Positions 2,511 to 16,477 of a stretch of DNA of 40,114 nucleotides are shown in pieces. The stretch's first letter is position 1; every line of letters starts with the position of its first letter. The stretch is taken from the NCBI GenBank assembly GCA_020432165.1, contig JAGQGU010000041.1, positions 1 to 40,114 on the forward strand, given 5' to 3'. The stretch is from Thermomicrobiales bacterium (lineage in GTDB: Bacteria > Chloroflexota > Chloroflexia > Thermomicrobiales > UBA6265). The position numbers were made by a program, and so were the translations under genes. Below the pieces are notes generated by a model. The model searched no databases and had not been told where the DNA came from. It worked only from the letters and a program-made list of their open reading frames with translations.

Positions 2511-2595
2511 GCCGGGTTGGTGAAATTGGCAGACACGCCAGACTTAGGATCTGGTGGCCTTAACGGCTGTGCAGGTTCGAGTCCTGTACCCGGCA
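2511..2595 (+). tRNA. tRNA-Leu (anticodon UAG)
   Basis: A complete cloverleaf with a 7-bp acceptor stem GCCGGGT/ACCCGGC, a D-arm, an anticodon loop with TAG (in CTTAGGA), the long variable arm typical of tRNA-Leu, and a T-arm with GGTTCGAGTCC. The discriminator is A. The terminal CCA is not encoded (CCG follows). The tRNA sits at the edge of an AT-richer accessory island, a position commonly used as an integration site. Confidence 0.96.
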
Positions 2596-2635
2596 CCGAA
2601 GAGATACCCAGATGACCTTACTCGAACACATCTCA

Positions 2636-2671: not shown

Positions 2672-5600
2672 TCATTGTGATTCAGCCACGGGGAGTGGTC
2701 GGACTTCTTCGTGAGTTCGCTCAAGACCAGGCTGGTCATCGCTCGCCTCAATACTTCGCGTAGAGATAGCCTTGTATTGCAACGGGCCGTATCGATCCTG
2801 CAATGACATGATCGCTGGGGCCGAAGCTAATACTAACCACCCCTCTCCGACTATATTGGAAGGTGCAGCCCACCCAGTATCGATGATTCCATCCGTCCAC
2901 CATAAACTCCGCACCATTTCATCACCGTTGACATCGACCCACGTTGGCAAAAGCGCATTTTCCACAAGATGCCAATCCATACTCATTCCTAACCTCGGAC
3001 TGAGTGCTAACCAGCTTGATGACGGAGTGTCATATGCATTGCATTCTGTATTTTCGATGACCATTGGCCGATCACTATCGACTTCAAGATTGCTTGAATA
3101 CTCATTAAGTGCAAGTCCATATACGCGTCCCACACCGCTGATTAGCCCTGATCCTGCGGGTGATCTTCCGATATCCTCAGCCCAAATGCTACCGCGTTCA
3201 CTAGGATAACGCTGTGTCGTCTGTCGGAATTCGGTTCGCATCGCGAGGATAGTGAGACCGCTTCTTTCAAGATCTCCAAACTGCGACTCAGATGCTTGCC
3301 CAACTTTACTCACCCATGCAGAATCAGTATTCTGTCCATACCCAAGCTCGTCCATTGGACTGAGCCATTCAGGGCGTTCAGATGGTTCGAGGAGTATCAT
3401 TGCCGGATCATGGACTCTTAGCCAGAACCGGAATCTCCCAATATCTTGCTGATCAATATCACCAGAATCCATAAGTTCGGCAATCACCCTAAAGAGTGCC
3501 GAACGCGCCGCTTGTACCCTTGGTCTCCTGCATGGAAGGTGAATTCGCACATTGTGAATCATTCGAAACAAGTTGTTCTCAGCAGTTGACGACCAAAGCG
3601 TCGGCTCCACTATCTCGTTCATGAGCTGAGTCATGCGCGCGGCAATTGCTTCTTCGGAGAGCATTGCGAGTCTGGCAATTATGGCAATGTGATCCTCAAA
3701 TGGCCGCACCAGGTGAAGAGGGCCGGGAGGCAGCTCTAGATCATATGAGACTGGTCTTGAAATCTGTTGGATTGCTTGGGATTCCCAGCTCATCATATGG
3801 CAGATCGATCGTGCTATGGATCTGACTGCAAAATCAGGAGAGTCGGACAACTCAATGACAGAAGCCTTGAATGGACTCAATGCCGTAGTGTCTTCAAGCA
3901 ATACAGCATCAAGAAGCTGCAATACCGGTAGCTGTATCTCAGATGGCCCTCCAAGTGCTGATTCCACAACCATTTGTGCGACGGAATCCGCTCGCAGAAC
4001 CCCGAGCGCACAAACACGTTGAGCTCCCTGAGCAATCTCAGAAACAGGGTGATTCAACAGCAGGGTCAGCAGCTCAGCTAGACCATATTCACTTGTGTCC
4101 CGGACTGTCGGTTCGGATAGCCAGTCCAGTCCGTCCAGCGCTATATCATGTGCAGCAAACATGGATCTTACAAATCGCTCGACTTCGGGCCAAACCATTT
4201 CGATAAGTGACTGGTCGCCGAGAAGCCCGGCAATCTCATGCAAGTTTCGAGCGATCAGACCATATCGGCCACTCTCTCCAGTCAGATAATCTATAAGGCG
4301 GTCTAACACTTGAGGGCTTGCCCGGTCTCGGTCGAGCTCAATCAGGTGGTAGGCCGCGTCAAGATTAGTTCCGCGACCCCACGATCGATCCCATCCTAGT
4401 CCTTGATCTGAGTCGAGAACATCAATCAACAGACTCTTTGCCAGACCATGCTCGTTTCTCTCCATCAAAATCTTGGCTATGAAAACCTCTATGCGCCCTC
4501 GCTCGCTTCCACGGTGATGCTGAATTCTCTTAACGAGTCCAATGAGGTCTTCAGTTGTTGATGGTTGTGCTACGCTTTTGATCACCGGCCACCAGGTGAA
4601 GAAAGAGTCATCCGCTTCCTGATCAAGCAGCTCCAGAACTCTCGATATTGATTGGGCGTCGCATAGGACACTACTCACATCATGTTCGGTACCATCACTT
4701 AACTTCAGAAGTGCGCGAGACGCTGAACTGGTCTCACTATCTGGACCAGAAAAGATCCTATCCAGATCCACTTCAGTACGATCAATGCCTATGGATTCAA
4801 ACGCCTGTGCTAGCGCGTGCCCCCAACCTCGTCGTAGTGTGGGCAAGGCGCGACTGGCCGCCTTTTTCGCAAGTAGGCCGGCGACACCGACTGCTCTCGA
4901 CTTACCGCCTTGCTGCTTCTCTATCGAAAGTAACCGCTCAATAAGTCTTCTCGGGACTCCATCCATCGATATCGGAAGAATCACTTCCGCCACTATGGAA
5001 GATAGTGACTGTACCGGACAATCATCAGCATCAAGAGTCCCTTCCAATATACTTATCAACGCGTCGTCAAATGGGACCATCTGTTGGTCAAGGAACCACG
5101 AGAGCAACCGTGTCGACCGTCTCGGACTCCATTGGAACGACGCTCCTATCAATGACAGAGCAGCCGTCCTGTCTGCACCTTCCTCGGTCGTTTGCTCCAG
5201 GACCAAAATTGCCCCGGCAAACCAACGGACCAGCTCGCCAGCATTGTGAGAATCAAAACCCAACGCCTCTGGCAACCACTGGTCAATCCAGTTAGCCAAT
5301 TGGTGATCCTTCCGGAATGCAATCGAGCTGGACTCAAGCAATAATCGTTGAAGCATTGACCGGGCATGGTCACTCTGACCCAGTTCCATCCATGCTTCGA
5401 TCTGATATCGACAGTCGTCGATCCTTTCGATCGTAAGCTTGTCATTGAATAGAGCTGACTCGAGATCGCCAAGAACTGCATTCGCCCATGTGGCAGGAGC
5501 TCCAACCTGTTTGAATGCAACAATCGCGGATCTCTGATCGTCACTGCTCCATGGAATCTCGCCCCAGGATTGCTCCAGCAAAGTTCGAACTGCACTTACT

Positions 5601-8600
5601 GCAGCATCACCGTGCAATGCGACTGCGCGAATGAGACGTTCAACCAGCCCTGCCCGTGCCCTCTCAACACCAAACCACGAAGTCCCCATTGCAGTGCGAC
5701 CTAGTTGGCGATCCAGAAGATACATGTGTGGCTGAATCGCAACAGAAAGCTCTCTCGGACTATGGAGGTCTCCACGCCAACTGGCACCTTCTATACGAGC
5801 AACCAATTGGACGAATCGCTCGAATCGCTCGATTCCCGACTCGGTAATTTCCGACTGCATGGATTCATAGCTAAGAGCTTCGGTATTTCTATCTAGGGCA
5901 TATTTGATGCGAGTGTGTGCATAGAGTTCGTCAAAAGGGCGGAACGCCCCATCTACACCAAAACTCAGTATATCGACGCCCGGTCGAGGAACATCTTCGA
6001 TCCATCGCCGGGCAAGTACTTCATCTTCACTTATCCGAAACGCCGCTGTCGCGATTGCGATCCGTGCCTTTGGATCAATGTCATGTGGCAGGAATCTCCC
6101 ACCTACAGCGCCTACCAGAGTGCGCGCCCTGTCAAGATCAACCTTCGCGGCCATTCTCCAAGCGTTTGCGTGAACCCATAGCCACCAGTCCCTATCAAAC
6201 TCGTTCTCTGGATTGAAACTCTCCGCGATATCATCGATATCACTCCAACGCCGTTGAAGAATCAGTCCCATTGCGGTGCGGAAGATTAATTTGTTCTGGA
6301 AAGTACGAATTTTCTTTTCGGGGGATTCGCGATCCCACTGCTGCGGAGCGACTGACAATCCCCTAATGATCCCGATGATCTTATTTACAGCATAAAAACG
6401 CGATGCCACTTCAGCCCATGCACAAAGGAGAGAGCCTTCTTCACTGTGCGAGGCGGTATTTACTGGTGTGTCTGGCCGAAGAAGCTCGAGCGGTTCCGCC
6501 AAGTCGAAGATTCGAGCCGCCTCTGTGTATAGGCCAGCATCAAAAAGGTCGGGAATGATCTCTAGGGCTTTGTCCCGAGCGATGCGAAGACGGCTACCTT
6601 CTCGTACATGTTCAACCGCGATTTCGGGCCTTCCTAGATCAAGTAACAAACTAATGAGGGGAACCTGTTCAAGATGTGATTGCCGTTGTTCGAGTTCCGC
6701 TCCAGCGAGGCTCAACCGACAGAACGCCACTAGGTTCTTCTGCCGAACAGCAGCCCTTATAGCAAGATTGACATCATCTTGAATCGCCGAGATCGATCGC
6801 AATGCAAACACTTGATTCCGGAAGTACTCCTGAGATGCTCTCTCACATACGACCTCATCCTGTCTTGCATGGACACGATGGTATAGCTCCTCCCAAGCCA
6901 ACCAGGAACCACTTTGTTCTTGAGAACATCGATTAGCGAGGTCACGATGGAGTCGCGCATCGCGTTCGGGATCAACGTGTCCCGGCCAGGTCTCACTCGT
7001 GCGCTCAGCAAGAAACACTCGAAAGCTATCGTGAAAGAAGTATGAGCGACCTCCTGATTCATGGCGAAAGAAGTGCCCAAAATGTCGCCTCAGTTTGCGC
7101 AGTGGTTCAAAACCTAGCCATGACTCTAGCCACGCCAGTGCAACTTGTCCTCGCATTCTCGCTGCATAGCCAAGAGCCTCGACTACGCTGTCGTCGGATG
7201 CGATCTGACTCCACGCTTCGTGATACCGAATCCCTATATCACCTGAAAAAACAGGAGTATCACTAAAAACAGCAACAACCTCTTCGAGATTTTCCGCCTG
7301 GCTAATGGAGTTGAGGAGATACACTAGGGCTAGTGGGTGCCCGGCCGAGAGTTCTACTAGGCGAGCTTTGTGAGCATCTGATTTCGAGATAATAGGATTA
7401 ACGCGTTCGGTTAAAGACAAAATCTCGCTTCGACTGAGTGGCTGCATCTCAACCCGACGCTGCTGGTCTCGCACCGCCATGATGATCGAATCAGGCAAGA
7501 CTATATCAGTCTGACTACCCAGTATGAAAATCACACCCTCTGGAAGTGAAGCGGGATTAGGCAAATCCTCCAAGAAAGAATGAACTGGGATATTCCCGCG
7601 TGAAACATGGTCGAGCCCGTCAACAAGTATGATTGTTTTGCTGCCGTTGACACTCCAGTCGTCACCAAGCATATGCAATTGATTATGGAAACGTTCGCGC
7701 AGCGCCAATCGATCATAACTAATTGTGCCGTGACCGCCTGAGAAGCCTTCATTGTGAAGTGCTAAGACCAGGTCATGAAGAAAGTTCTCAGATTCGCCTC
7801 GGCCGATACTCAATCCAGTGCTTTCTGGAACAAACGCATAGTACCTGATAACGCGATCTGACCTGAATCGCAACGAGTGAGTGAGAAGTGTTGACTTTCC
7901 AGAGCCAGGCGAGCCAAAGACACCGAGATATCCTCCGGTGATCGCATCGAGCTTCTCCTCTAGCTCATGCACACTCTCATCAATCGGCTGATACAGGGCC
8001 TCGTCAACAGGAAAGACGTGAGAGTTGCGAGGTCTAAAACGATCCGTCCACCCCAATCGCTCCAATAATTGCTGACGCTCTATATGCACTGGAGCAGGCT
8101 CGCGCGCTGCAAGATCAAATATGACGTGACGAATATGATCGATATCAGCGACAGTTTGCTGGACATCACGAGTGGCATTAAGGTCAAGCAAAGTAGTCGG
8201 CTCAACCATGAACTCCAATTTGCAACTTCGCACAAACTGGTGGAAAGTGTCGGGATCGAGACCAGAGGCAACTCTTAATTGCTCCCAAGCAGGTACCCAC
8301 TTATCAGGGAGAACAGTGGGAAGATAGGGCGCGCCCTGTTGGTTCGGAATCCAGACCTCATCGATAAATGCTGTCAGATGACGTGGGCCAGACGCAGCTT
8401 CGGCAACTCTAAGTCTGTCATGGCTAGATGCCGGAGCATTGGTCATAAGGTGGACTGTAGTGCCTAGACCGTGGGATTCACGAAGTAGTTGCCATCCTTC
8501 AGCCAATTGCTGAATCAAACAAGGGTTTTGACGGGAATCGTCCGATTCATCCATGTTCAGAGCATCAATGGTGCTTGCATCTCGCGAACCCGACGGTGCC

Positions 8601-8839
8601 GCTACAACCAGGTCTCGAAACGTGAAGCCTCCTGATGCACGATGCTTGAACTGATATGCTTTCACACGATTGTCTTGACATAGGACGAAGTCATCAACCC
8701 GTCCGGCATTAATGTCCTTTATCCGGACCCAGTCAAGGTTTCCATGCAGTAGCCCCTTGAGAACAAGGGTCGCGCTCGCCATATATTGGTAGTGGTAGCC
8801 AGCCACAGCGGCACCTTCTCCAGCTGCTGGAGCATGCAT
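2672..8839 (-). CDS. Avs-like antiviral STAND NTPase with N-terminal Cap4/DUF4297-type nuclease
   Basis: A single 2055-residue protein. Residues 1-220 look like a DUF4297/Cap4-type dsDNA nuclease: a GYHYQY motif at 14-19, an acidic pair Asp49-Asp50, then QFK (Gln63, Lys65), the PD-(D/E)xK core. Residues 285-560 form a STAND/NACHT-type NTPase with Walker A GSPGSGKST (309-317), Walker B ILVDGLDHV (404-412) and a GHPLAL helix. The remaining 1400 or so residues are helical and repeat-like, without recognisable catalytic motifs. This order, nuclease then NTPase then giant sensor, is that of Avs proteins. In those, the C-terminus binds a conserved phage protein such as terminase or portal, and assembly switches the nuclease on. 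The gene is intact and AT-richer than its neighbours. A weak AGAGAG site precedes the ATG. It lies next to tRNA-Leu and downstream of a small HTH gene. The subtype and phage target cannot be told from here. Confidence 0.82.
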   Translation of the reverse strand: MHAPAAGEGAAVAGYHYQYMASATLVLKGLLHGNLDWVRIKDINAGRVDDFVLCQDNRVKAYQFKHRASGGFTFRDLVVAAPSGSRDASTIDALNMDESDDSRQNPCLIQQLAEGWQLLRESHGLGTTVHLMTNAPASSHDRLRVAEAASGPRHLTAFIDEVWIPNQQGAPYLPTVLPDKWVPAWEQLRVASGLDPDTFHQFVRSCKLEFMVEPTTLLDLNATRDVQQTVADIDHIRHVIFDLAAREPAPVHIERQQLLERLGWTDRFRPRNSHVFPVDEALYQPIDESVHELEEKLDAITGGYLGVFGSPGSGKSTLLTHSLRFRSDRVIRYYAFVPESTGLSIGRGESENFLHDLVLALHNEGFSGGHGTISYDRLALRERFHNQLHMLGDDWSVNGSKTIILVDGLDHVSRGNIPVHSFLEDLPNPASLPEGVIFILGSQTDIVLPDSIIMAVRDQQRRVEMQPLSRSEILSLTERVNPIISKSDAHKARLVELSAGHPLALVYLLNSISQAENLEEVVAVFSDTPVFSGDIGIRYHEAWSQIASDDSVVEALGYAARMRGQVALAWLESWLGFEPLRKLRRHFGHFFRHESGGRSYFFHDSFRVFLAERTSETWPGHVDPERDARLHRDLANRCSQEQSGSWLAWEELYHRVHARQDEVVCERASQEYFRNQVFALRSISAIQDDVNLAIRAAVRQKNLVAFCRLSLAGAELEQRQSHLEQVPLISLLLDLGRPEIAVEHVREGSRLRIARDKALEIIPDLFDAGLYTEAARIFDLAEPLELLRPDTPVNTASHSEEGSLLCAWAEVASRFYAVNKIIGIIRGLSVAPQQWDRESPEKKIRTFQNKLIFRTAMGLILQRRWSDIDDIAESFNPENEFDRDWWLWVHANAWRMAAKVDLDRARTLVGAVGGRFLPHDIDPKARIAIATAAFRISEDEVLARRWIEDVPRPGVDILSFGVDGAFRPFDELYAHTRIKYALDRNTEALSYESMQSEITESGIERFERFVQLVARIEGASWRGDLHSPRELSVAIQPHMYLLDRQLGRTAMGTSWFGVERARAGLVERLIRAVALHGDAAVSAVRTLLEQSWGEIPWSSDDQRSAIVAFKQVGAPATWANAVLGDLESALFNDKLTIERIDDCRYQIEAWMELGQSDHARSMLQRLLLESSSIAFRKDHQLANWIDQWLPEALGFDSHNAGELVRWFAGAILVLEQTTEEGADRTAALSLIGASFQWSPRRSTRLLSWFLDQQMVPFDDALISILEGTLDADDCPVQSLSSIVAEVILPISMDGVPRRLIERLLSIEKQQGGKSRAVGVAGLLAKKAASRALPTLRRGWGHALAQAFESIGIDRTEVDLDRIFSGPDSETSSASRALLKLSDGTEHDVSSVLCDAQSISRVLELLDQEADDSFFTWWPVIKSVAQPSTTEDLIGLVKRIQHHRGSERGRIEVFIAKILMERNEHGLAKSLLIDVLDSDQGLGWDRSWGRGTNLDAAYHLIELDRDRASPQVLDRLIDYLTGESGRYGLIARNLHEIAGLLGDQSLIEMVWPEVERFVRSMFAAHDIALDGLDWLSEPTVRDTSEYGLAELLTLLLNHPVSEIAQGAQRVCALGVLRADSVAQMVVESALGGPSEIQLPVLQLLDAVLLEDTTALSPFKASVIELSDSPDFAVRSIARSICHMMSWESQAIQQISRPVSYDLELPPGPLHLVRPFEDHIAIIARLAMLSEEAIAARMTQLMNEIVEPTLWSSTAENNLFRMIHNVRIHLPCRRPRVQAARSALFRVIAELMDSGDIDQQDIGRFRFWLRVHDPAMILLEPSERPEWLSPMDELGYGQNTDSAWVSKVGQASESQFGDLERSGLTILAMRTEFRQTTQRYPSERGSIWAEDIGRSPAGSGLISGVGRVYGLALNEYSSNLEVDSDRPMVIENTECNAYDTPSSSWLALSPRLGMSMDWHLVENALLPTWVDVNGDEMVRSLWWTDGIIDTGWAAPSNIVGEGWLVLASAPAIMSLQDRYGPLQYKAISTRSIEASDDQPGLERTHEEVRPLPVAESQ

Positions 8840-9003
8840 TTACATCTCTCTGATCGTGATATCACGCCGTCATCGGCGAACGTGTCGCAACCTAATATCG
8901 AGACCTTTCTGATATACCATTGTAGTTCAACAACCCTAGGTCAGGATTGATTACGTCCGACCCGCTCTAGCTATCGGCTCAGTCACGTCGACAAAGTTTA
9001 ACT
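8840..9003 (-). promoter_or_regulatory. Intergenic region upstream of the Avs-like gene
   Basis: 164 bases separate the HTH gene from the Avs-like gene. On the minus strand a TACAAT hexamer could be a -10, but there is no good -35 at the usual spacing. No other structure is recognised. Confidence 0.25.
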
Positions 9004-9489
9004 CTAGCTTTCCGACCGCCGCGTACTATGGAGCCTCATACTCACACCGCGCTCTCGCAGCACTCTGCGGATCGTGCCAATTGGATGCTCCACTTGCTTT
9101 ACCACTTGTCTAACTGTCAAACCGCTCTCATAAAGCTGCACGGCCAGATCTATGTCTTCTGAAGTTATGGAGTGTTCTCGAAACTGAACCACCTCAGTTA
9201 CAAGCAAGTCACGTAAAGCCGACTCCGATACGCCGAACTCTTTACTCAACGCCCTAACGGTTTCTCCGGTTTTGTGACGCATCGAGAGCGCTTCTCTGGT
9301 CTCTGGCGAGAGGCGTCGCTTGATATTTCTAGGAAGGGTGTGTCGTTCAATTATACTGGGGTGGTCGGGAAGGTTTTTTCGAGACTGATCGGCCAGTTTC
9401 GCAATCTCTTCCGACGTTGGGGATACCAGCTTCGATTTGTTCAAGTGGCTGTCTACACTGCGCACCCATAGAAAATCATGTCCCTGCAA
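9004..9489 (-). CDS. Two-HTH DNA-binding protein of mobile-element type
   Basis: A 161-residue protein with two consecutive helix-turn-helix units: one around residues 60-98 (LSPETREAL..., SKEFGVSESALRDLL) and one around 110-152 (AVQLYESGLTVRQVV..., GTIRRVLRERGVSMR). This tandem layout is typical of small HTH proteins related to the C-terminal DNA-binding part of serine recombinases, common on mobile elements in Actinobacteria and Chloroflexota. There is no recombinase catalytic domain. The likely start is a TTG at 9489, directly after the stop codon of the upstream GNAT remnant; a GGAG lies 10 bases before it. It is on the same strand as the Avs-like gene, 164 bases upstream. It could be its regulator or a leftover of the element that delivered the island. 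Confidence 0.6.
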   Translation of the reverse strand: MQGHDFLWVRSVDSHLNKSKLVSPTSEEIAKLADQSRKNLPDHPSIIERHTLPRNIKRRLSPETREALSMRHKTGETVRALSKEFGVSESALRDLLVTEVVQFREHSITSEDIDLAVQLYESGLTVRQVVKQVEHPIGTIRRVLRERGVSMRLHSTRRSES

Positions 9490-9626
9490 TCATATTGAGC
9501 TCCAGAACTTCTCTGCGGCAGGTATCGCGGGGTTGGGGTGGAGATAGACTCTGGCATATCCCAGAGTCTGCGCCACGAACTTCTGAGCAGCGGCTACAAG
9601 TGCTCGTGTGGCACGTTCCGATACTC
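9490..9626 (-). pseudogene. Truncated GNAT acetyltransferase remnant
   Basis: The frame from about 9623 down to a TGA at 9490-9492 encodes a stretch (ATRALVAAAQKFVAQ..., AEKFWSSI) that closely matches the middle of the intact GNAT gene at 10683-11237 (AARALVAAAQAFVAE..., AEKFWRSM). DNA identity includes runs such as CTCCAGAACTTCTCTGC. The N-terminal half and the last 29 or so residues are missing. Similarity stops where the AT-richer island begins, so the remnant looks cut by insertion or rearrangement. Confidence 0.75.
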
Positions 9627-9731
9627 TGACAGAACCTCTCCAACTACTTCCCCATACCCTCAAAACCGGTGCTACAATGCGGTCGGCAAACCCGCCACGC
9701 ACCAATCCCGGAAAGGAAGCCCCGGCACGAG

Positions 9732-10601
9732 ATGAACAACAATCTGGCCATATCAACGTACTCCTACCATCGCTTCGGTTCCGGTCCGGAAGGTGCCGAT
9801 CTGCCCACGATGGAAACCATGATCAAGCGGACTGCTGCCTACGGTATCCAGGGTCTGGAAATCATCGGCAACCATCTCGATCAGCTCGGTCAGGCAGACA
9901 CCGCCTCTCTCCACCAACTGAAGCAGCTCATGGCTGCGCATGGCGTAGCACCAGTCTCGGTCTCGGCCCATCACAACTTCGTTCAGCCCGATCCTGCAGT
10001 GCGAAACGAGCACATCGCCAGGCTAAAGCAGTGGATCGACGCCGCCTATGAGATTGGGGCACCGTTCGTGCGGGCGTTTGGTGGACGTTGGGGCACTATG
10101 ACGAACTTCGGTGAGTTCATGGCGGCCGGTGGTAACGAACCGCCGATCGATGGCTACACGCTCGACGATGCTTTCCAGTGGACGATCGATTCTTTCATCG
10201 AGTGCGCTGCCTATGCATCCGGTAAGGGGGTGACGATTCTGCTGGAGAATCACTGGGGACTCACCGGCACCGCTGCAGGCACCCTGCGCATCTTCGAGGG
10301 CGTCAACTCACCCTGGCTGAAACTGGTGCTCGATACCGGAAACTTCATCCAGGAGCCCGATCAGTACGCCGAGATGGCGCTCATGCTGCCCCACTGCGCG
10401 CTGATTCATGCCAAGACCTATATCGGCAAGTCGCTCTACTTCGACGAGTTCGATCTGGATTACGCCCGCATCGCCCGATTGTTGAAGGATGCCGGGTATC
10501 AGGGTTATCTGTCGATCGAGTTTGAAGGGAAAGCGCATCCAGATGAGGGCATTCCCGCCAGCATCGCACAGGTTCGTGCTGGCCTGGCTGCAGTCGACTA
10601 A
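9732..10601 (+). CDS. Sugar phosphate isomerase/epimerase (xylose isomerase-like TIM barrel)
   Basis: A 289-residue cytoplasmic TIM-barrel protein of the AP-endonuclease-2/xylose-isomerase-like superfamily. Metal-site motifs are visible along the barrel: ILLENHWG with Glu, LVLDTGNF with Asp, ALIHAKTY with His, and LSIEFEGK with Glu near the C-terminus. Members epimerise or isomerise sugars, inositols or related keto compounds; the substrate cannot be assigned here. I choose the ATG at 9732 because an AAGGAAG ribosome site precedes it. The frame extends to an ATG at 9669 without support. A strong terminator follows. Confidence 0.85.
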   Translation: MNNNLAISTYSYHRFGSGPEGADLPTMETMIKRTAAYGIQGLEIIGNHLDQLGQADTASLHQLKQLMAAHGVAPVSVSAHHNFVQPDPAVRNEHIARLKQWIDAAYEIGAPFVRAFGGRWGTMTNFGEFMAAGGNEPPIDGYTLDDAFQWTIDSFIECAAYASGKGVTILLENHWGLTGTAAGTLRIFEGVNSPWLKLVLDTGNFIQEPDQYAEMALMLPHCALIHAKTYIGKSLYFDEFDLDYARIARLLKDAGYQGYLSIEFEGKAHPDEGIPASIAQVRAGLAAVD

Positions 10602-10625
10602 TTCGTTCCCGGATCGGGAAGAATC

Positions 10626-10663
10626 AACAGCCGCCGTCCGGAGCATCGGACGGCGGCTGTTGT
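10626..10663. terminator. Bidirectional terminator between convergent genes
   Basis: A perfect 15-bp stem (10626-10640 with 10647-10661) with loop GAGCAT. It lies between the isomerase gene and the convergent GNAT gene. T-rich tails are short, but the stem is very GC-rich. Confidence 0.75.
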
Positions 10664-10682
10664 ACATCACACGATGTCAGGC

Positions 10683-11237
10683 TCAGGATGTCTCAGGAAT
10701 ATCAAGCTCAAAGTGGATAGCGCGCATTCCGTCTTCTCGGATTCCAAGATCATCGTAGACCTCGACCGTGGGCATCGATCTCCAGAACTTCTCTGCCCCT
10801 GGTATCTCCGGGTTGGTATGGAGATAGATGGTGGAATAACCAGGTGTTTCTGCGACAAAGGCCTGGGCAGCGGCTACAAGTGCGCGAGCGGCGCCTCGCC
10901 GACGATGCTCGCTGGCGATGTACACCCGGAATATCTGGGCGACGTCATCACCTGCATAGCGTTCCGCGAGCCAGGCCGGATGCGGCGGCGATTTTGGGCC
11001 GTCTTCTCGAATGGCGGTGGTACCAATCACCTCTCCGGAGTCGATATCCACAGCAACAAACATGGCCTGTCGCGGGTGATCCACGTACACCTCATGCATG
11101 TGATCAAGATCGCTATGGTATGCAGGATCGATTCCTGTCTTGAGATCCTCTTCCAATACCCGAATGATCACCTTCCGGGCGCCATCAAGGTCCTCATCAG
11201 TCATTGCCTGTCGAACCATAAAACCTGGGTCATTCAT
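10683..11237 (-). CDS. GNAT family N-acetyltransferase
   Basis: A 184-residue GNAT protein. The acetyl-CoA-binding loop EHRRRGAARAL follows the strand with VAQIFRVYIA, and the C-terminal part holds AEKFWRSM, where GNATs bind the acceptor. GNATs transfer an acetyl group from acetyl-CoA to an amine; the acceptor is unknown. The frame opens at 11264, but a strong GGGAGGGGAG ribosome site precedes the ATG at 11237, so that start is preferred. It may be co-transcribed with the flavoprotein gene 60 bases upstream. A damaged copy of its middle part lies at 9490-9626. Confidence 0.85.
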   Translation of the reverse strand: MNDPGFMVRQAMTDEDLDGARKVIIRVLEEDLKTGIDPAYHSDLDHMHEVYVDHPRQAMFVAVDIDSGEVIGTTAIREDGPKSPPHPAWLAERYAGDDVAQIFRVYIASEHRRRGAARALVAAAQAFVAETPGYSTIYLHTNPEIPGAEKFWRSMPTVEVYDDLGIREDGMRAIHFELDIPETS

Positions 11238-11297
11238 CGCTCCCCTCCCGGACATACCTGACACTCAGCGCCCTGGGTCTTAGCCTCGTCGGGTCGC

Positions 11298-12197
11298 CTA
11301 AGCATCGCGAAAGATCAACCACTGATGCGCACTTCCGCCAGCGACAACGCCCGAGGCGGCTGCGACCGTGACCTGGGGCATCGGGCTTGCCACGTCGCCA
11401 GCGGCAAAGACACCCGGGACCGATGTCTGTTGACGCTGATCGGTGCTGATAATCGGACCGGTCGGCCCATCCTCGAATGCGCACCCCAGCTTCTCGGCCA
11501 GTGTTCCCACGGGCACGGTCTGCGGACTCGTAAAGAGCGCGGAGATGGCAATCGTTCTCCCGTCGGCAAGGCGGACTCCGTCCAGATGCGGTGCCTCGCC
11601 AAAGAGCTCGACGACTTGCGAACGCTCAACCTGCACGCCGCGGCTGGCGAGAGCAACAACCTGCTCAGCCGAAGGCTCGAACAGCCCCTGGGTAAAGAAT
11701 GTGGTAGCACCCCAATCGGGCAAGATCATGGCCTGGTGAAATGCCAGCGCGTTGTTGGCAAGCACGCCAAGAGGCTGCTGATTCACCTCGTAACCATGGC
11801 AGTAGGGACAATGCAGCACACTGGTTCCCCATCGTTCCTGCATGCCCGGGATATCTGGCAACAAGTCGCGAACACCCGTTGCCAATATCAGCGTCCTCGC
11901 CATCTCTTCTTGCCCATTCGCCAGCGAAACCCGGAATCCGCGCTCGATCGCAACAGCATTAACAACCTCGCCGTCGCGCACCTCCACTGTGGCGTACCTC
12001 ATCAGCTGTTGCCGCGCCGTCGCGAGAATCTGAGCGGGCGAAACACCATCCTGCCCAAGAAACCCATGCGACGCGGCAGCGAAACGGTTACGCGGTAATC
12101 CGCCATCCACCAGAAGGGTCCGCTGGCGCGCCCGACCTAACTGAAGCGCGGCGGCATGTCCAGCAAAGCTACCGCCGATAACGATTGAATCGAACAT
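11298..12197 (-). CDS. Thioredoxin-reductase-like FAD-dependent oxidoreductase
   Basis: A 299-residue flavoprotein with an N-terminal FAD dinucleotide-binding motif (VIGGSFAG), the ATG motif in LILATGVRD, a redox-active CPYC (Cys130, Cys133) followed by HGYE, and a C-terminal GVFAAGDV FAD-binding motif. It resembles the compact thioredoxin reductase/AhpF-like group often found without an adjacent thioredoxin gene. The NAD(P)-binding glycine motif in the second domain is weak, so the reductant is uncertain. The frame opens at a GTG at 12230; the ATG at 12197 gives the standard N-terminus and has a GGAG about 11 bases upstream. A TTGACA promoter element and a palindrome sit upstream. Confidence 0.85.
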   Translation of the reverse strand: MFDSIVIGGSFAGHAAALQLGRARQRTLLVDGGLPRNRFAAASHGFLGQDGVSPAQILATARQQLMRYATVEVRDGEVVNAVAIERGFRVSLANGQEEMARTLILATGVRDLLPDIPGMQERWGTSVLHCPYCHGYEVNQQPLGVLANNALAFHQAMILPDWGATTFFTQGLFEPSAEQVVALASRGVQVERSQVVELFGEAPHLDGVRLADGRTIAISALFTSPQTVPVGTLAEKLGCAFEDGPTGPIISTDQRQQTSVPGVFAAGDVASPMPQVTVAAASGVVAGGSAHQWLIFRDA

Positions 12198-12263
12198 AAA
12201 CTCGAACACTCCATCAATGCTCATACTCACCGGTTGGCAGTGGTAAGCAACCGATCACAATAT

Positions 12264-12278
12264 TGATACTTTGTATCA
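12264..12278. promoter_or_regulatory. Palindromic operator candidate in a divergent promoter region
   Basis: TGATAC-TTT-GTATCA is a perfect inverted repeat between the divergent flavoprotein and GNAT genes. On the minus strand a perfect TTGACA -35 (12293-12288) places the -10 zone on top of it. On the plus strand a TATACT at 12279-12284 could be a -10. A redox-type repressor site is plausible, but the regulator is not in this window. Confidence 0.5.
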
Positions 12279-12350
12279 TATACTTCATGTCAAATCGAAG
12301 GAAGTGGTATCCCGTATTCCTGATTTTCGGAGTGAATGAGGTAGCCAGCG

Positions 12351-12821
12351 GTGACATTTGACATTCGACCTGCCACCCACACAGACATCCCCCGACTAAT
12401 TGAGCTTTCGACCGCTCTGTCGCAAGAGGATGGTGGGTTGCATGGGGAGGCTATCAATCATCAATGGGCGCAAGATTTTGGGACGAATTCGTTTGCGCGA
12501 TCAATCGACGACTCGAATTCACACATCATCGTGGCCGAGATCGCAGACCAGATCGTCGGGAGCCTGCATGGCTATCTCCGGACCACCCCATCATGGAGAT
12601 CGGTAGATATTGGGGTGATCATCAGCATCTTTGTCGAACCAGCGTTTCGCAGTGCTGGTCTTGGCGCAGAACTCGTCTCGGTATTCAGTTCCTGGGCCAG
12701 GGCATCCGGAGCAGAGAGGCTGGCGGTCACCGCCTTCGCCACCAACCAGGGCGCCATCGGCTTCTATGAGCGCGAAGGATTCCGTCGATTTGAAGTGACA
12801 CTGGAGAAGGAGCTCGCATAA
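12351..12821 (+). CDS. GNAT family N-acetyltransferase
   Basis: A 156-residue GNAT protein. The N-terminal FDIRPATHTDI is the usual first strand and helix, ISIFVEPAFRSAGLG carries the acetyl-CoA pyrophosphate loop, and AIGFYEREGFRR is the classic C-terminal motif. The acceptor is unknown. Translation starts at a GTG at 12351, with ATGAGG about 10 bases upstream; no in-frame ATG is available. It is divergent from the flavoprotein gene and shares the upstream palindrome. Confidence 0.85.
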   Translation: MTFDIRPATHTDIPRLIELSTALSQEDGGLHGEAINHQWAQDFGTNSFARSIDDSNSHIIVAEIADQIVGSLHGYLRTTPSWRSVDIGVIISIFVEPAFRSAGLGAELVSVFSSWARASGAERLAVTAFATNQGAIGFYEREGFRRFEVTLEKELA

Positions 12822-12936
12822 AGTCACACTCCCTCTTTGATGGTGTTGCGAAGCCGGTTACAAGGCGAGCGGCTTATTCGCTAAAAGTCGATGAGCCGCG
12901 TTCTGAGATTCCAATGGCACGGTTTCACAGATACTA
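12822..12936. other. Intergenic gap between convergent genes
   Basis: About 115 bases between the end of the plus-strand GNAT gene and the end of the minus-strand phosphatase gene. No clear hairpin terminator or gene was seen. Confidence 0.4.
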
Positions 12937-13491
12937 CTATCGCGGGGTCTCAACGACCTCATACTCCCAGCCGGCTTGCCATGTTCCGGTTTTTCGCCAG
13001 TCGTTCGCGATCGCATGTTCCCACGTCTGGCCGTTGAGGATAACGTCAAACGCGAGTTGTGGAGCCTGATGTGAGACAAGGGCGATTCGCTTGCCAGCGA
13101 ACAGACGCTGTGCGTCCGCCAGAAAACTGCGCATTCGCAGCTCGACATCACGGTAGCTTTCGCCGCCGAGATACGCCGTATGAATGTAGCGCTGTTCGCA
13201 ATTGGTTTTGAACGCGTCCGCTGGCGCACCGTCAAACTCGCCATGATGGCATTCACGCAATCGCCAGTCGAGAAACAATGGAAACCTGCGACCGAAGAAG
13301 AGTTCGGCGCTATCGACGGCCCGTTTGAGGTCACTGCAGAAGACGGCATCCACGTTGAGGGAACGCATCGCGTCACCCAGTGCTGACGCTTGCTTGATTC
13401 CCTGAGCAGAGAGATCGCCCGGCAGCCAGCCAGTTGCCAGCCCCGCCTCGTTATCAACCGTGGTTCCATGCACAAAGTAATTAATCTTCAT
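12937..13491 (-). CDS. Histidine phosphatase superfamily protein with altered RHG motif
   Basis: A 184-residue protein of the phosphoglycerate-mutase-like histidine phosphatase fold. The second-site motif FCSDLKRAVDSAEL, the acidic LRECHHGEFDG loop and the late ALVSHQAP histidine are all present. The N-terminal motif, normally RHG, reads VHGTTVDNE: the phosphoacceptor His is kept but the first Arg is Val. Histidine phosphatases with this FVHGTT start appear to form a subgroup, so this may be a natural variant and not an inactive enzyme. The substrate is unknown. A GTG six bases upstream (13497) is the alternative start; neither has a strong ribosome site. Confidence 0.8.
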   Translation of the reverse strand: MKINYFVHGTTVDNEAGLATGWLPGDLSAQGIKQASALGDAMRSLNVDAVFCSDLKRAVDSAELFFGRRFPLFLDWRLRECHHGEFDGAPADAFKTNCEQRYIHTAYLGGESYRDVELRMRSFLADAQRLFAGKRIALVSHQAPQLAFDVILNGQTWEHAIANDWRKTGTWQAGWEYEVVETPR

Positions 13492-13509
13492 CGTCACAGC
13501 ATAGCGCAG

Positions 13510-13533
13510 GGGTCACACTATGAAGCATGACCC
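13510..13533. terminator. Possible hairpin after the dipeptidase gene
   Basis: GGGTCA (13510-13515) and TGACCC (13528-13533) flank a 12-base loop between the phosphatase start and the end of the dipeptidase operon. No T-tract follows, so this is a weak terminator candidate. Confidence 0.3.
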
Positions 13534-13563
13534 TCTGCCCATCTATCAGCTCAGCGCTGTCCA

Positions 13564-14604
13564 CTATGCTCCGGTATCCCATACCTCAGCAAAGACACGC
13601 ATGAAGTTGCCCCCGAGGATCTTCGAGGCATCTTCGGCAGAGAATCCACGCTGAAGCAAATGCTTGGTCAAATTCGGCCACTCAGACCACTTGCTGAATC
13701 CTTCGGCGTGCTTTTGCTCGGCAGTGTAGCCGCCGAAGAACGTTGGCAATGTCCGTTTGAAGGACGATCGACCCAGCTCGGCGAAATAGTTGTCTGTCTG
13801 GAAATTATCGGTACCAATACCAACGTGATCGATACCCACCATCTCCGCTACATATTCCATCTGATCGATATAGTCATCAATAGTCGGACGCTTGCCTGGT
13901 GCGCGTTCGATAAAGATGGAATGTGGGCACAGTCCAATCACGCCTCCCTTCTCCGCCATCGCCCGAATATGGTCATCGCTAACCGCCCGCGGATGATCCT
14001 TGAAGTGCTTAACCGCCACGTGTGAATAAATCGGAGGACGCTTGGCATATTTGATGGCATCCATGCTCGTACGGGCACCAACGTGGGATAGATCCAGCAC
14101 CGCTCCCAAAATGCCCATCTGTTCGATCGCCTGTTGGCCGCGGCGAGTCAGCCCCTGATCGTTGGGCTCCATACAGCCGGAGCCGAGTGCATTGTGTTCG
14201 TTATAGGTCAACTGCATAATGCGAACGCCCAGTTTATAGAGCACCCACAGATTGCGTGTGTCCTCACCGATGCAATTCAACCCCTGCGTGCTAATGATCA
14301 TGCCAACGCGGCCCGTTTCCTTGGCCAACCGGATGTCTGCTGAGGTATGCACGGGAATTACCTGATCAGGGAAAGCATCGTAGATCAGGTTTGTATCGTA
14401 GAGTACCTCGATAGCACCATCCATGGTGTAGGGGAAGGAGTCTGGAATCGCCGAGTTGCTGAATGCTGTAACGCCTCCAGCAATCAGGTGCTCGAACATC
14501 ATCCCCGGCACATCCTCTGTGGGCGGAATCGGCTCATCCAAATGGCAGAACAATCCATCGATAACGATGCTATCGGCGTGAACCTGGCTGGAATCCTGGG
14601 TCAT
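13564..14604 (-). CDS. Membrane dipeptidase (renal dipeptidase family, peptidase M19)
   Basis: A 346-residue metallopeptidase of the M19 family, which hydrolyses dipeptides. The first metal motif is HLD (His21, Asp23), His174 sits in DLSHVG, His195 in IYSHVAVKH, and a C-terminal GIGTD holds a conserved Asp. The bridging Glu usually found in an EG motif is Gln here (STQGLN, residue 107), as in one M19 subgroup. No signal peptide is seen, so it probably works in the cytoplasm. The frame runs to 14676, but a CAGGAG ribosome site supports the ATG at 14604. It is the last gene of the operon, 19 bases after the DppC-like permease, and would cleave imported dipeptides. Confidence 0.88.
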   Translation of the reverse strand: MTQDSSQVHADSIVIDGLFCHLDEPIPPTEDVPGMMFEHLIAGGVTAFSNSAIPDSFPYTMDGAIEVLYDTNLIYDAFPDQVIPVHTSADIRLAKETGRVGMIISTQGLNCIGEDTRNLWVLYKLGVRIMQLTYNEHNALGSGCMEPNDQGLTRRGQQAIEQMGILGAVLDLSHVGARTSMDAIKYAKRPPIYSHVAVKHFKDHPRAVSDDHIRAMAEKGGVIGLCPHSIFIERAPGKRPTIDDYIDQMEYVAEMVGIDHVGIGTDNFQTDNYFAELGRSSFKRTLPTFFGGYTAEQKHAEGFSKWSEWPNLTKHLLQRGFSAEDASKILGGNFMRVFAEVWDTGA

Positions 14605-14623
14605 TTCATTGTCTCCTGACGTA

Positions 14624-15526
14624 TTAGCGTGCTCTGCTTCGGGGATCCAAAATGTCCCGCAGACCATCGCCAACAAAGTTCGTCGCTATCACCACAATCG
14701 TGATGACAAGTCCCGGAATCACCGAGATAAATGGTGCATCAAATATGTAGTCCCTCCCTTCGCCCACCATGACACCCCAACTGGAGGCCGGTGGAACAAC
14801 TCCCATACCGAGATAACTGATGGACGACTCAAGCAGAATGAAACGACCAACGGAGTACGTGGTCATCACGATGACTACTGCCATCGCATTGGGAATGAGC
14901 GTGCGTAGCACAATGCGAAAGGTCGTCGCGCCGATGGCTCGGCTCGATTCCACATACGGTTGCGAGCTGATCGCTAATGTTTCGGCTCTTACCACGCGCG
15001 TGAAATCTGCCCAGCCGGTGAGGGCAAGGATGATGGTCAGTGTCAGAATGCTTCTGCCAATAATCGTGGCCAGCACAATCGCAATGAGAATGACCGGCAG
15101 CGCCAATAGCGCATCAACGATCCGCATCGTCAGCGAGTCAATCCAGCCGCCGACGTATCCACACAGCACGCCAATGAGTGTCCCGAAAACGGTCACCAGC
15201 ATTGAGGCACCAATCGCGGTCATCAAGCTGTATCGCCCGCTGTACAGAATCCGCGAGAGCATGTCACGACCAAGGAAATCGGCACCCAGAATGTGATAAT
15301 TCCCGGACCGATCAACCTGAAAGGGTGGCGAGAATCGCGATGACAGGCTGCTTGCCAGTGGATCGTAAGGCAACATACTGGTTGGCCAGGCAGCACCGAT
15401 CAGGAAAGCAAGAAGGATCAATCCGCTAAAGAGAGTGAACCAGTTAGCCCGTATCCATGCTCCATTGAGCGAACGTCGCTTCCTACCCTGTATGCGACCG
15501 TTATGAGCCAACACTTCAGCTGACAT
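14624..15526 (-). CDS. Dipeptide/oligopeptide ABC transporter permease, DppC type
   Basis: A 300-residue inner-membrane permease with about six transmembrane helices. The N-terminal extension and the HILGADFLGRDMLSRILYSGRYSL block are typical of DppC/OppC (Pfam OppC_N plus BPD_transp_1), and the EAA loop near ESSRAIGATTFRI contacts the ATPase. GGAGAAAGGG precedes the ATG at 15526, preferred over an upstream start at 15550. The cognate ATPases are not encoded in this window. Confidence 0.92.
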   Translation of the reverse strand: MSAEVLAHNGRIQGRKRRSLNGAWIRANWFTLFSGLILLAFLIGAAWPTSMLPYDPLASSLSSRFSPPFQVDRSGNYHILGADFLGRDMLSRILYSGRYSLMTAIGASMLVTVFGTLIGVLCGYVGGWIDSLTMRIVDALLALPVILIAIVLATIIGRSILTLTIILALTGWADFTRVVRAETLAISSQPYVESSRAIGATTFRIVLRTLIPNAMAVVIVMTTYSVGRFILLESSISYLGMGVVPPASSWGVMVGEGRDYIFDAPFISVIPGLVITIVVIATNFVGDGLRDILDPRSRAR

Positions 15527-15553
15527 GGTGCCCTTTCTCCTCGGTCGCACTTC

Positions 15554-16477
15554 TCAGGACGCTCGCGCCTGCGGGTTGATAAAGCCGTATGACACATCAA
15601 CAACGAGATTGGTTACGATCACGATCAGGCAGAGGATGAGCACAATCCCCTGAATCAGCGGGAAATCACGGGCGTAGATCGCATCCAGGGCCAACCGACC
15701 GAGACCCGGCCAACCAAAGACCTGTTCCACCACGACGGCGCTGCCAACCAGTTGAGCAGCCTGGATCGCTAACATCGTGATGGGAGCCATCAAGGCATTT
15801 CTGAGTGCATGTCGGTAGACAACACTTCGCTCACCCAATCCCTTGGCTCGAGCAGTACGGATGTAGTCGGCACTCAGTACTTCGAGCATGGAGGAGCGCA
15901 CGAGTCGTGTAAGCAGCGCGATGGTTGGCGTCGCCAGCGTAAACGCCGGCAGCAAGAGATGCTTCCAGGTGCCGTATCCACTGGTCGGGAGCCATCGCAG
16001 CCGTAGCCCAAACAACAACATGAGGAGAATGCCGAGATAGAATCGCGGAACAGCCTGCCCGACAACCACAAACAGCCGAATCAGCGTATCTTCCTTGCGG
16101 TTCCATCGTCGCGCCGCCAACACACCCAGGGGGACGGACACCACCACCGAAATGATCACAGAAGCGGTAACCAGCACCATGCTTGCCATAAGCCGCTCAC
16201 CGATCAGATCCGCTACCGGTCGCGAGTATCGAAGAGATGCTCCCATATCGCCGGTCAGCAGATTGCGGATGTAGTCCCAAAACTGGATCAGCAACGGATC
16301 GTTGAGCCCCCACTGGTCCCGCAGCGCACCGACGGATTCGTTCGTGGCCGCATCGCCTAACATCAACGAAGCCGGATCACCGGTCAGACGTGTGAGGCTG
16401 AAGACCAACACCAGTACGAAGAGCAGCATTGGGATGGTTTGAATGACTCTTTGAAGAACATATTTAGGAAGGTTCAT
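15554..16477 (-). CDS. Dipeptide/oligopeptide ABC transporter permease, DppB type
   Basis: A 307-residue inner-membrane permease. The N-terminal helix with LTRLTGDPASLMLG is the DppB/OppB signature. The central membrane domain follows, with the EAA loop DYIRTARAKGLGE about 70 residues before the C-terminus. It pairs with the DppC-type protein encoded immediately downstream and the binding protein just upstream. An ATG at 16477 is preferred to a TTG one codon earlier; the ribosome site is weak. Confidence 0.92.
   Translation of the reverse strand: MNLPKYVLQRVIQTIPMLLFVLVLVFSLTRLTGDPASLMLGDAATNESVGALRDQWGLNDPLLIQFWDYIRNLLTGDMGASLRYSRPVADLIGERLMASMVLVTASVIISVVVSVPLGVLAARRWNRKEDTLIRLFVVVGQAVPRFYLGILLMLLFGLRLRWLPTSGYGTWKHLLLPAFTLATPTIALLTRLVRSSMLEVLSADYIRTARAKGLGERSVVYRHALRNALMAPITMLAIQAAQLVGSAVVVEQVFGWPGLGRLALDAIYARDFPLIQGIVLILCLIVIVTNLVVDVSYGFINPQARAS

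Follow-up and report, generated by a model that had tools for sequence, protein, structure and literature searches.

What does a single reading frame of 6.2 kb do in a Thermomicrobiales bacterium? The frame lies at 2672..8839 on the minus strand of a 40,114-nucleotide stretch of contig JAGQGU010000041.1, the whole of which we call the window. A preliminary description of this DNA had read it as one intact frame of 2055 residues encoding an antiviral STAND (Avs) protein, STAND standing for signal transduction ATPases with numerous domains, in which a Cap4/DUF4297-like nuclease is followed by a STAND NTPase and a long sensor. The frame opens with ATG and runs without an internal stop or frameshift, full-length relatives support the gene, and structure matches to Cap4 (7yib), HamA (8zue) and Avs3 (8dgc) bear out the three-part anatomy. 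We consider it quite likely that the product is a single-gene anti-phage receptor of the Avs type, akin to nucleotide-binding leucine-rich repeat receptors (NLRs), which belongs to a sister clade of Avs1b and acts by sensing, oligomerization and DNA cutting. An anti-phage function as such is highly probable.

The first half of the protein gives the clearest structural evidence. An AlphaFold2 model of residues 1-800 (mean predicted local distance difference test score, pLDDT, 85.7; predicted template modeling score, pTM, 0.81) has as its best match among solved structures SeAvs3 bound to the terminase of phage PhiV-1 (8dgc), with model residues 3-528 aligned to chain residues 2-502 (450 residues, Z 17.0 in VIA). 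Within this model, residues 1-265 (8045..8839, on the minus strand like all features of the protein given here) form a Cap4/HamA-like PD-(D/E)xK nuclease domain, the putative effector; the matches to PD-(D/E)xK nucleases cover residues 1-264 and include HamA (8zue, Z 12.3) and Cap4 (7yib, Z 11.8) in VIA. A sequence search with a profile of the nuclease part also recovers HamA (E 9.6e-5); in this alignment the catalytic DD (D49-D50; 8690..8695) and QxK (Q63-F-K65; 8645..8653) both line up, the latter with the QVK of HamA. The GYHYQY motif stands at residues 14-19, and there is a weak match to LmuA on residues 10-77. The DUF4297 label of the preliminary description found little echo in Pfam, where PF14130 gave E 0.038 and matched only one of ten family members, and when solved structures were searched by sequence, neither the single protein nor the full profile matched more than short stretches of P-loop. 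By its fold and its conserved D...QxK residues the domain nevertheless belongs to the Cap4/DUF4297-like PD-(D/E)xK superfamily, and it is very likely to have nuclease activity. Among the nucleases it resembles, Cap4 is joined to SAVED, HamA (Hachiman) has a helicase as partner and LmuA (Lamassu) an SMC-like ATPase; the nuclease of the window protein differs from them in being fused to a STAND receptor.

Residues 285-640 (6920..7987) form the STAND NTPase and winged-helix region, identified by Pfam AAA_22, by the PADLOC Avs1b model and by structure matches to Avs3, Apaf-1 and plant NLRs. This region carries the Walker A motif GSPGSGKST (residues 309-317; 7889..7915), the Walker B motif ILVDGLDHV (404-412; 7604..7630) and, in the winged-helix part, an HDSF motif (603-606; 7022..7033). 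The nuclease and Walker motifs named in the preliminary description are all present and are not chance resemblances, since their key residues are invariant in a 37-row family alignment (Q18, D49, D50, Q63, K65, G312, G314, K315, S316, D407, D410 and H411, along with H603, S605 and F606 of the HDSF motif) and since relatives at 25-29% identity span nearly the whole protein, for example 4-2036 of 2055. In an alignment of 39 rows, D50 and K65 are kept in all of them and Q18, D49 and Q63 in 38; the exception is the locus L039, described below, which has no nuclease and whose letters in these columns carry no meaning.

The remaining 1400 or so residues are modeled as a sensor composed of an alpha-solenoid (residues 641-1835; 3335..6919) and a beta-rich C-terminal cap (1839-2048; 2696..3325). 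The description of this part as repeat-like holds for the modeled solenoid; it does not hold for the last 210 or so residues, which are beta-rich, and a Pfam scan of the protein detected no repeat family. When the model of residues 861-2055 (mean pLDDT 82.5, pTM 0.77) was compared with solved structures, the Avs3-terminase complex 8dgc was the single outstanding match, with a Foldseek E of 6.6e-11 and a template modeling (TM) score of 0.44, against 0.05-0.15 in the other solenoids listed. In VIA the match reached Z 15.1 over 936 residues, placing model residues 1-1195 on chain residues 832-2087, and the next unrelated solenoid reached Z 9.9. KDHQ (1177-1180; 5300..5311) is among the most conserved motifs of the sensor and is in register with KEDQ of Avs1b. 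As modeled, the protein thus shows the broad anatomy of an Avs protein, with an N-terminal effector, a central STAND NTPase and a long C-terminal solenoid sensor.

To which Avs type is the protein related? By sequence, the nearest is Avs1b (AVAST type 1; NF041810, PDLC02159). Both PADLOC and NCBIfam place Avs1b on residues 291-781 (PADLOC E 5.1e-34), and the Avs1b model matches all ten family members tested; the NCBIfam score of 100.9 bits, although the homology is clear, falls below the cut-off of 1500. Profile-profile comparison with Avs1b extends over 1276 columns (probability 100, E 4e-45), and over 771 columns when the two sensors are compared alone (probability 96.6, E 6.7e-10). The same comparison with an Avs2-like set and an Avs4 set yielded no more than a P-loop resemblance, with probabilities of 4.6 (Walker A only) and 10.7 (NTPase only) for the whole protein and about 0.1 on the sensor for each. 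A maximum-likelihood NTPase tree was built from 47 rows and 480 columns, none of the rows being an Avs3. In it, five Avs1b proteins form one clade (100/96) and the 37 nuclease-bearing family members together with L039 form another (98/98); a Flavobacterium member (L067) and an archaeal protein (L068) sit on long branches and are unplaced. Within its sampling, this tree thus makes the family the sister clade of Avs1b, with good support.

In the profile comparisons the two groups have in common a homologous STAND NTPase and the greater part of the solenoid sensor; they also share a similar length (about 1930 residues for Avs1b against 2055) and the KEDQ/KDxQ motif, in register. They differ at the N-terminus, where Avs1b has a trypsin-like protease and the window protein a fused Cap4-like nuclease. 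Avs1b also acts with a separate pro-nuclease of the metallo-beta-lactamase (MBL) fold, Avs1a, and with Avs1c, whereas neither gene lies beside the window gene, and a comparison of the window with four sequences each of Avs1a and Avs1c gave no match.

The likeness to SeAvs3 (AVAST type 3) raises a different possibility, namely that the window protein is simply an Avs3 of SeAvs3 architecture and size that has diverged in sequence. SeAvs3 is the best match in the Protein Data Bank (PDB) for both halves of the protein, and the two are co-linear in fold, with a Cap4-like nuclease, STAND domain and solenoid in the same order. However, no Avs3 model matched in PADLOC or NCBIfam, whereas the Avs1b model matched ten of ten family members; the family profiles miss SeAvs3; and the NTPase clade is sister to Avs1b, in a tree drawn without Avs3. 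We therefore think it unlikely that the protein is an Avs3, and describe the family as close to Avs1b by sequence and Avs3-like by fold, the fold comparison being unable to choose between the two because the structure libraries searched yielded no Avs1b structure. Two enterobacterial Cap4-STAND proteins, L130 (760-4029) and L133 (466-3747), were considered as Avs3 and set aside, L130 having no sequence match to 8dgc; they make up another Cap4-like and STAND group, 36% identical to each other and distantly related to the family.

What would such a receptor sense? Terminase activates the Avs1 of Erwinia (PMC12799240), and a passage of PMC12724215, citing Gao 2022, gives terminase as the ligand of Avs1-3 and portal as that of Avs4. 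Because the sensor is homologous to that of Avs1b and matches Avs3 in fold, the large terminase is the more probable ligand of the window protein. The preliminary description had proposed a divergent Avs type with its own phage target; the sister-clade position supports the first part, and the second finds no support, since the likeness is to the sensors of Avs1b and Avs3, which are published as sensing terminase, so that the class of target is probably shared. A receptor of the same design could instead respond to portal or to another phage- or host-derived signal, as do Avs4 (portal), some Avs2 proteins (Ksap1) and Avs5 (a jumbo-phage protein). Related Avs proteins indeed have several triggers (PMC12931631), and the sensor is the least conserved part of the family: relatives keep 12-25% identity to the window protein there, but 18-33% in the nuclease and 28-41% in the NTPase. 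This alternative is less likely but serious; against it stand the alignment with the Avs1b sensor, the end-to-end match with the Avs3-terminase complex and the want of any profile match to Avs4 and Avs2 sensors.

With terminase as the probable ligand, we propose the following scheme, in which every step beyond the anatomy is drawn by analogy with published Avs proteins. In an uninfected cell the receptor would be held inactive. On infection the solenoid sensor would bind a conserved protein of the phage DNA-packaging machinery, for which the large terminase subunit is the likeliest candidate; the STAND NTPase would then bind ATP and the receptor would oligomerize, a step that we infer from SeAvs3. 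This would bring the N-terminal Cap4-like nuclease domains together as active dimers, much as the nuclease domains of Avs3 dimerize once its STAND domain is activated (PMC12198126), and the dimers would cut double-stranded DNA, so that the infection stops but the cell is sacrificed (abortive infection).

Several observations weigh against this reading of the gene. The global root mean square deviation between the sensor model and 8dgc is 11.8 Å, so the curvature of the two solenoids differs, and a long alpha-solenoid can score well in such model comparisons through shape alone. The family profiles have no match to the PDB sequences of Avs3 (8dgc), which leaves the link to Avs3 as one of fold only. 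At several sensor positions that hardly vary in the family (S1172, R1489, R1695, M1867), the window protein is off consensus. Finally, its neighbors in the window have metabolic and transport functions, and no recognized defence system was found beside it.

The sensor changes could mean that the gene is a decayed copy whose frame is intact but whose function is lost, and several relatives are visibly broken: L037 (9977-16122) is split in two frames, L024 (7854-11102) ends beside IS903B and L023 (8944-12018) lies beside an IS3 element. Split or shortened members (L037, L042, L024, L023 and L027) come from Vibrio rotiferianus, Pseudomonas aeruginosa PA7, Klebsiella and a V. cholerae plasmid, as if the family gene were often lost. 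The window gene, in contrast, has kept its long open frame and all of its nuclease and Walker residues, and decay is very improbable.

The metabolic neighbors invite a further alternative, that the protein is a STAND signaling protein with a non-defence role, a regulator of the MalT or Apaf type. STAND ATPases do include transcription regulators, and the maltose-system regulator 8bob is among the structure matches. However, no DNA-binding regulator domain was found in the window protein, its catalytic nuclease residues are kept across phyla, and its relatives are patchily distributed, carried on plasmids and found in defence-rich neighborhoods. A non-defence role is extremely unlikely.

The neighborhoods of the relatives were compared with a control by taking the 120 open reading frames (ORFs) nearest to 20 family loci and 120 far ORFs on the same 20 contigs. 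At E 1e-15, 43 PADLOC models matched among the neighbors and 8 among the controls, these being counts of models and not of proteins, as a single neighbor can match more than one (Avs2 accounts for six). The neighbor models include type I-E Cas, DISARM, Lamassu, Thoeris, Dpd, BREX, Hma, Tmn, Avs2 and Avs1a, whereas the controls match nothing beyond generic kinase-like models, methyltransferases and SspH. The most frequent Pfam families of the neighbors, unlike those of the controls, include phage integrases, resolvases and transposases. Annotated neighbors include Dsr1, a Lit-family protein, an ATPase-helicase pair, AbiE, and transposons or insertion sequence (IS) elements. The neighbors of the relatives are thus enriched in defence and mobile genes over same-contig controls. 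With this, none of the three grounds for rejection that the preliminary description had set out applies, since the nuclease and STAND matches exist and the family does not lie consistently in non-defence contexts. No conserved partner gene was found beside the family loci, where only recombinases recur (at no more than six loci); this fits a one-gene system.

Scanning with an alignment brought out 42 loci in genomes and three in viral contigs, and about a dozen plasmids also carry relatives, full-length at 26-29% identity by tblastn; a single-sequence scan of the genome contigs had found none. The family is present in at least seven bacterial phyla, and the sources of its members include Pseudomonadota, Actinomycetota, Bacteroidota, Chloroflexota, Nitrospira, Brocadiaceae, Zixibacteria, a Polyangium and Acidobacteria. 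Intact members have about 1870-2200 residues. In the haloarchaeon Halorussus, L068 (9299-13801) encodes a 1500-residue protein with a Cap4-like N-terminus and a related STAND NTPase, a distant match confined to the N-terminal half. The members L069, L070 and L071 sit on contigs that IMG/VR classifies as viral, which makes carriage by phages or prophages possible; the phage genome collection itself contained no relative. The family is widespread and probably under-counted, because the models tried recognize no more of it than the NTPase, which they score as a weak Avs1b.

Compared with the rest of the window, the gene stands apart in composition: its GC content is 0.511 against 0.56-0.57 in its neighbors, its GC content at third codon positions (GC3) is 0.47 against 0.56-0.70 in the genes past the tRNA and helix-turn-helix genes, and it is absent from 60 other genomes of the same order, several of them incomplete. 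Together these features suggest acquisition from outside. The gene is flanked by a tRNA-Leu (2511..2597, plus strand) and an unrelated TIM-barrel gene, in surroundings of transporters, peptidases and oxidoreductases. The tRNA-Leu lies 74 bases past the 3' end of the receptor gene, a possible insertion neighborhood; no att-like duplication of the tRNA end of at least 12 bases occurs in the window, so tRNA-borne insertion is not demonstrated. Just upstream, a 161-residue protein with a resolvase-type helix-turn-helix (9004..9489, minus strand; Pfam HTH_58, HTH_7) is possibly the remnant of a mobile element. A HipA-like kinase gene (HipA_2) overlaps a DUF3037 gene at 1258-2497, just before the tRNA-Leu; this pair and the helix-turn-helix protein are the sole hints of mobility or conflict in the window.

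Does the receptor body always carry a nuclease? L039 (Bacteroidia bacterium SSF10, 8097-15079) has the family STAND domain and sensor, 24.6% identical to the window protein over residues 258-2017 of the latter, and the NTPase tree places it within the family clade. Its first 200 residues, however, are trypsin-like and replace the nuclease. It matches the window protein with 436 bits over its residues 201-1867, and the nearest Avs1b with 155 bits over its protease and NTPase. An Avs1a-like MBL gene (E down to 1.8e-55 against Avs1a) ends exactly at its start. Avs1a/Avs1b works by proteolytic activation of a pro-nuclease (PMC12799240). Since L039 combines a protease and an Avs1a-like gene with the family NTPase and sensor, one and the same receptor body is found both with a nuclease of its own and with a protease cascade; read from these sequences, effectors have been swapped on the family chassis. 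The direction of the exchange is not fixed by the tree, in which L039 groups with L051 at a support of 84/38. At L051 (Bacteroidaceae, 4507-15811) an Avs1a-like gene, a 1425-residue frame (5687-9961) and a nuclease-type family member lie on the same strand, the Avs1a-like gene being a weaker match than that of L039 and about 4.3 kb upstream of the nuclease-bearing member.

Modular Avs receptors with exchangeable effectors are already known; the variant described here is unnamed by the models tried, and its clade may already stand in the trees of Gao et al. 2022. By joining Avs1b through sequence to Avs3 through fold, the family suggests one lineage of terminase-sensing receptors. Our broadest proposal, whose chances we put somewhat short of even, is of an unnamed, phylum-spanning Avs type, sister to Avs1, whose common terminase-sensing chassis carries either a fused Cap4-like nuclease or a protease and pro-nuclease pair, so that one-step and proteolytic-cascade effectors replace each other. 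L039 is a natural effector swap of this kind, and a comparison with its nuclease-bearing relatives could show whether one sensor and NTPase are able to work through a nuclease directly as well as through a protease that switches on a pro-nuclease.

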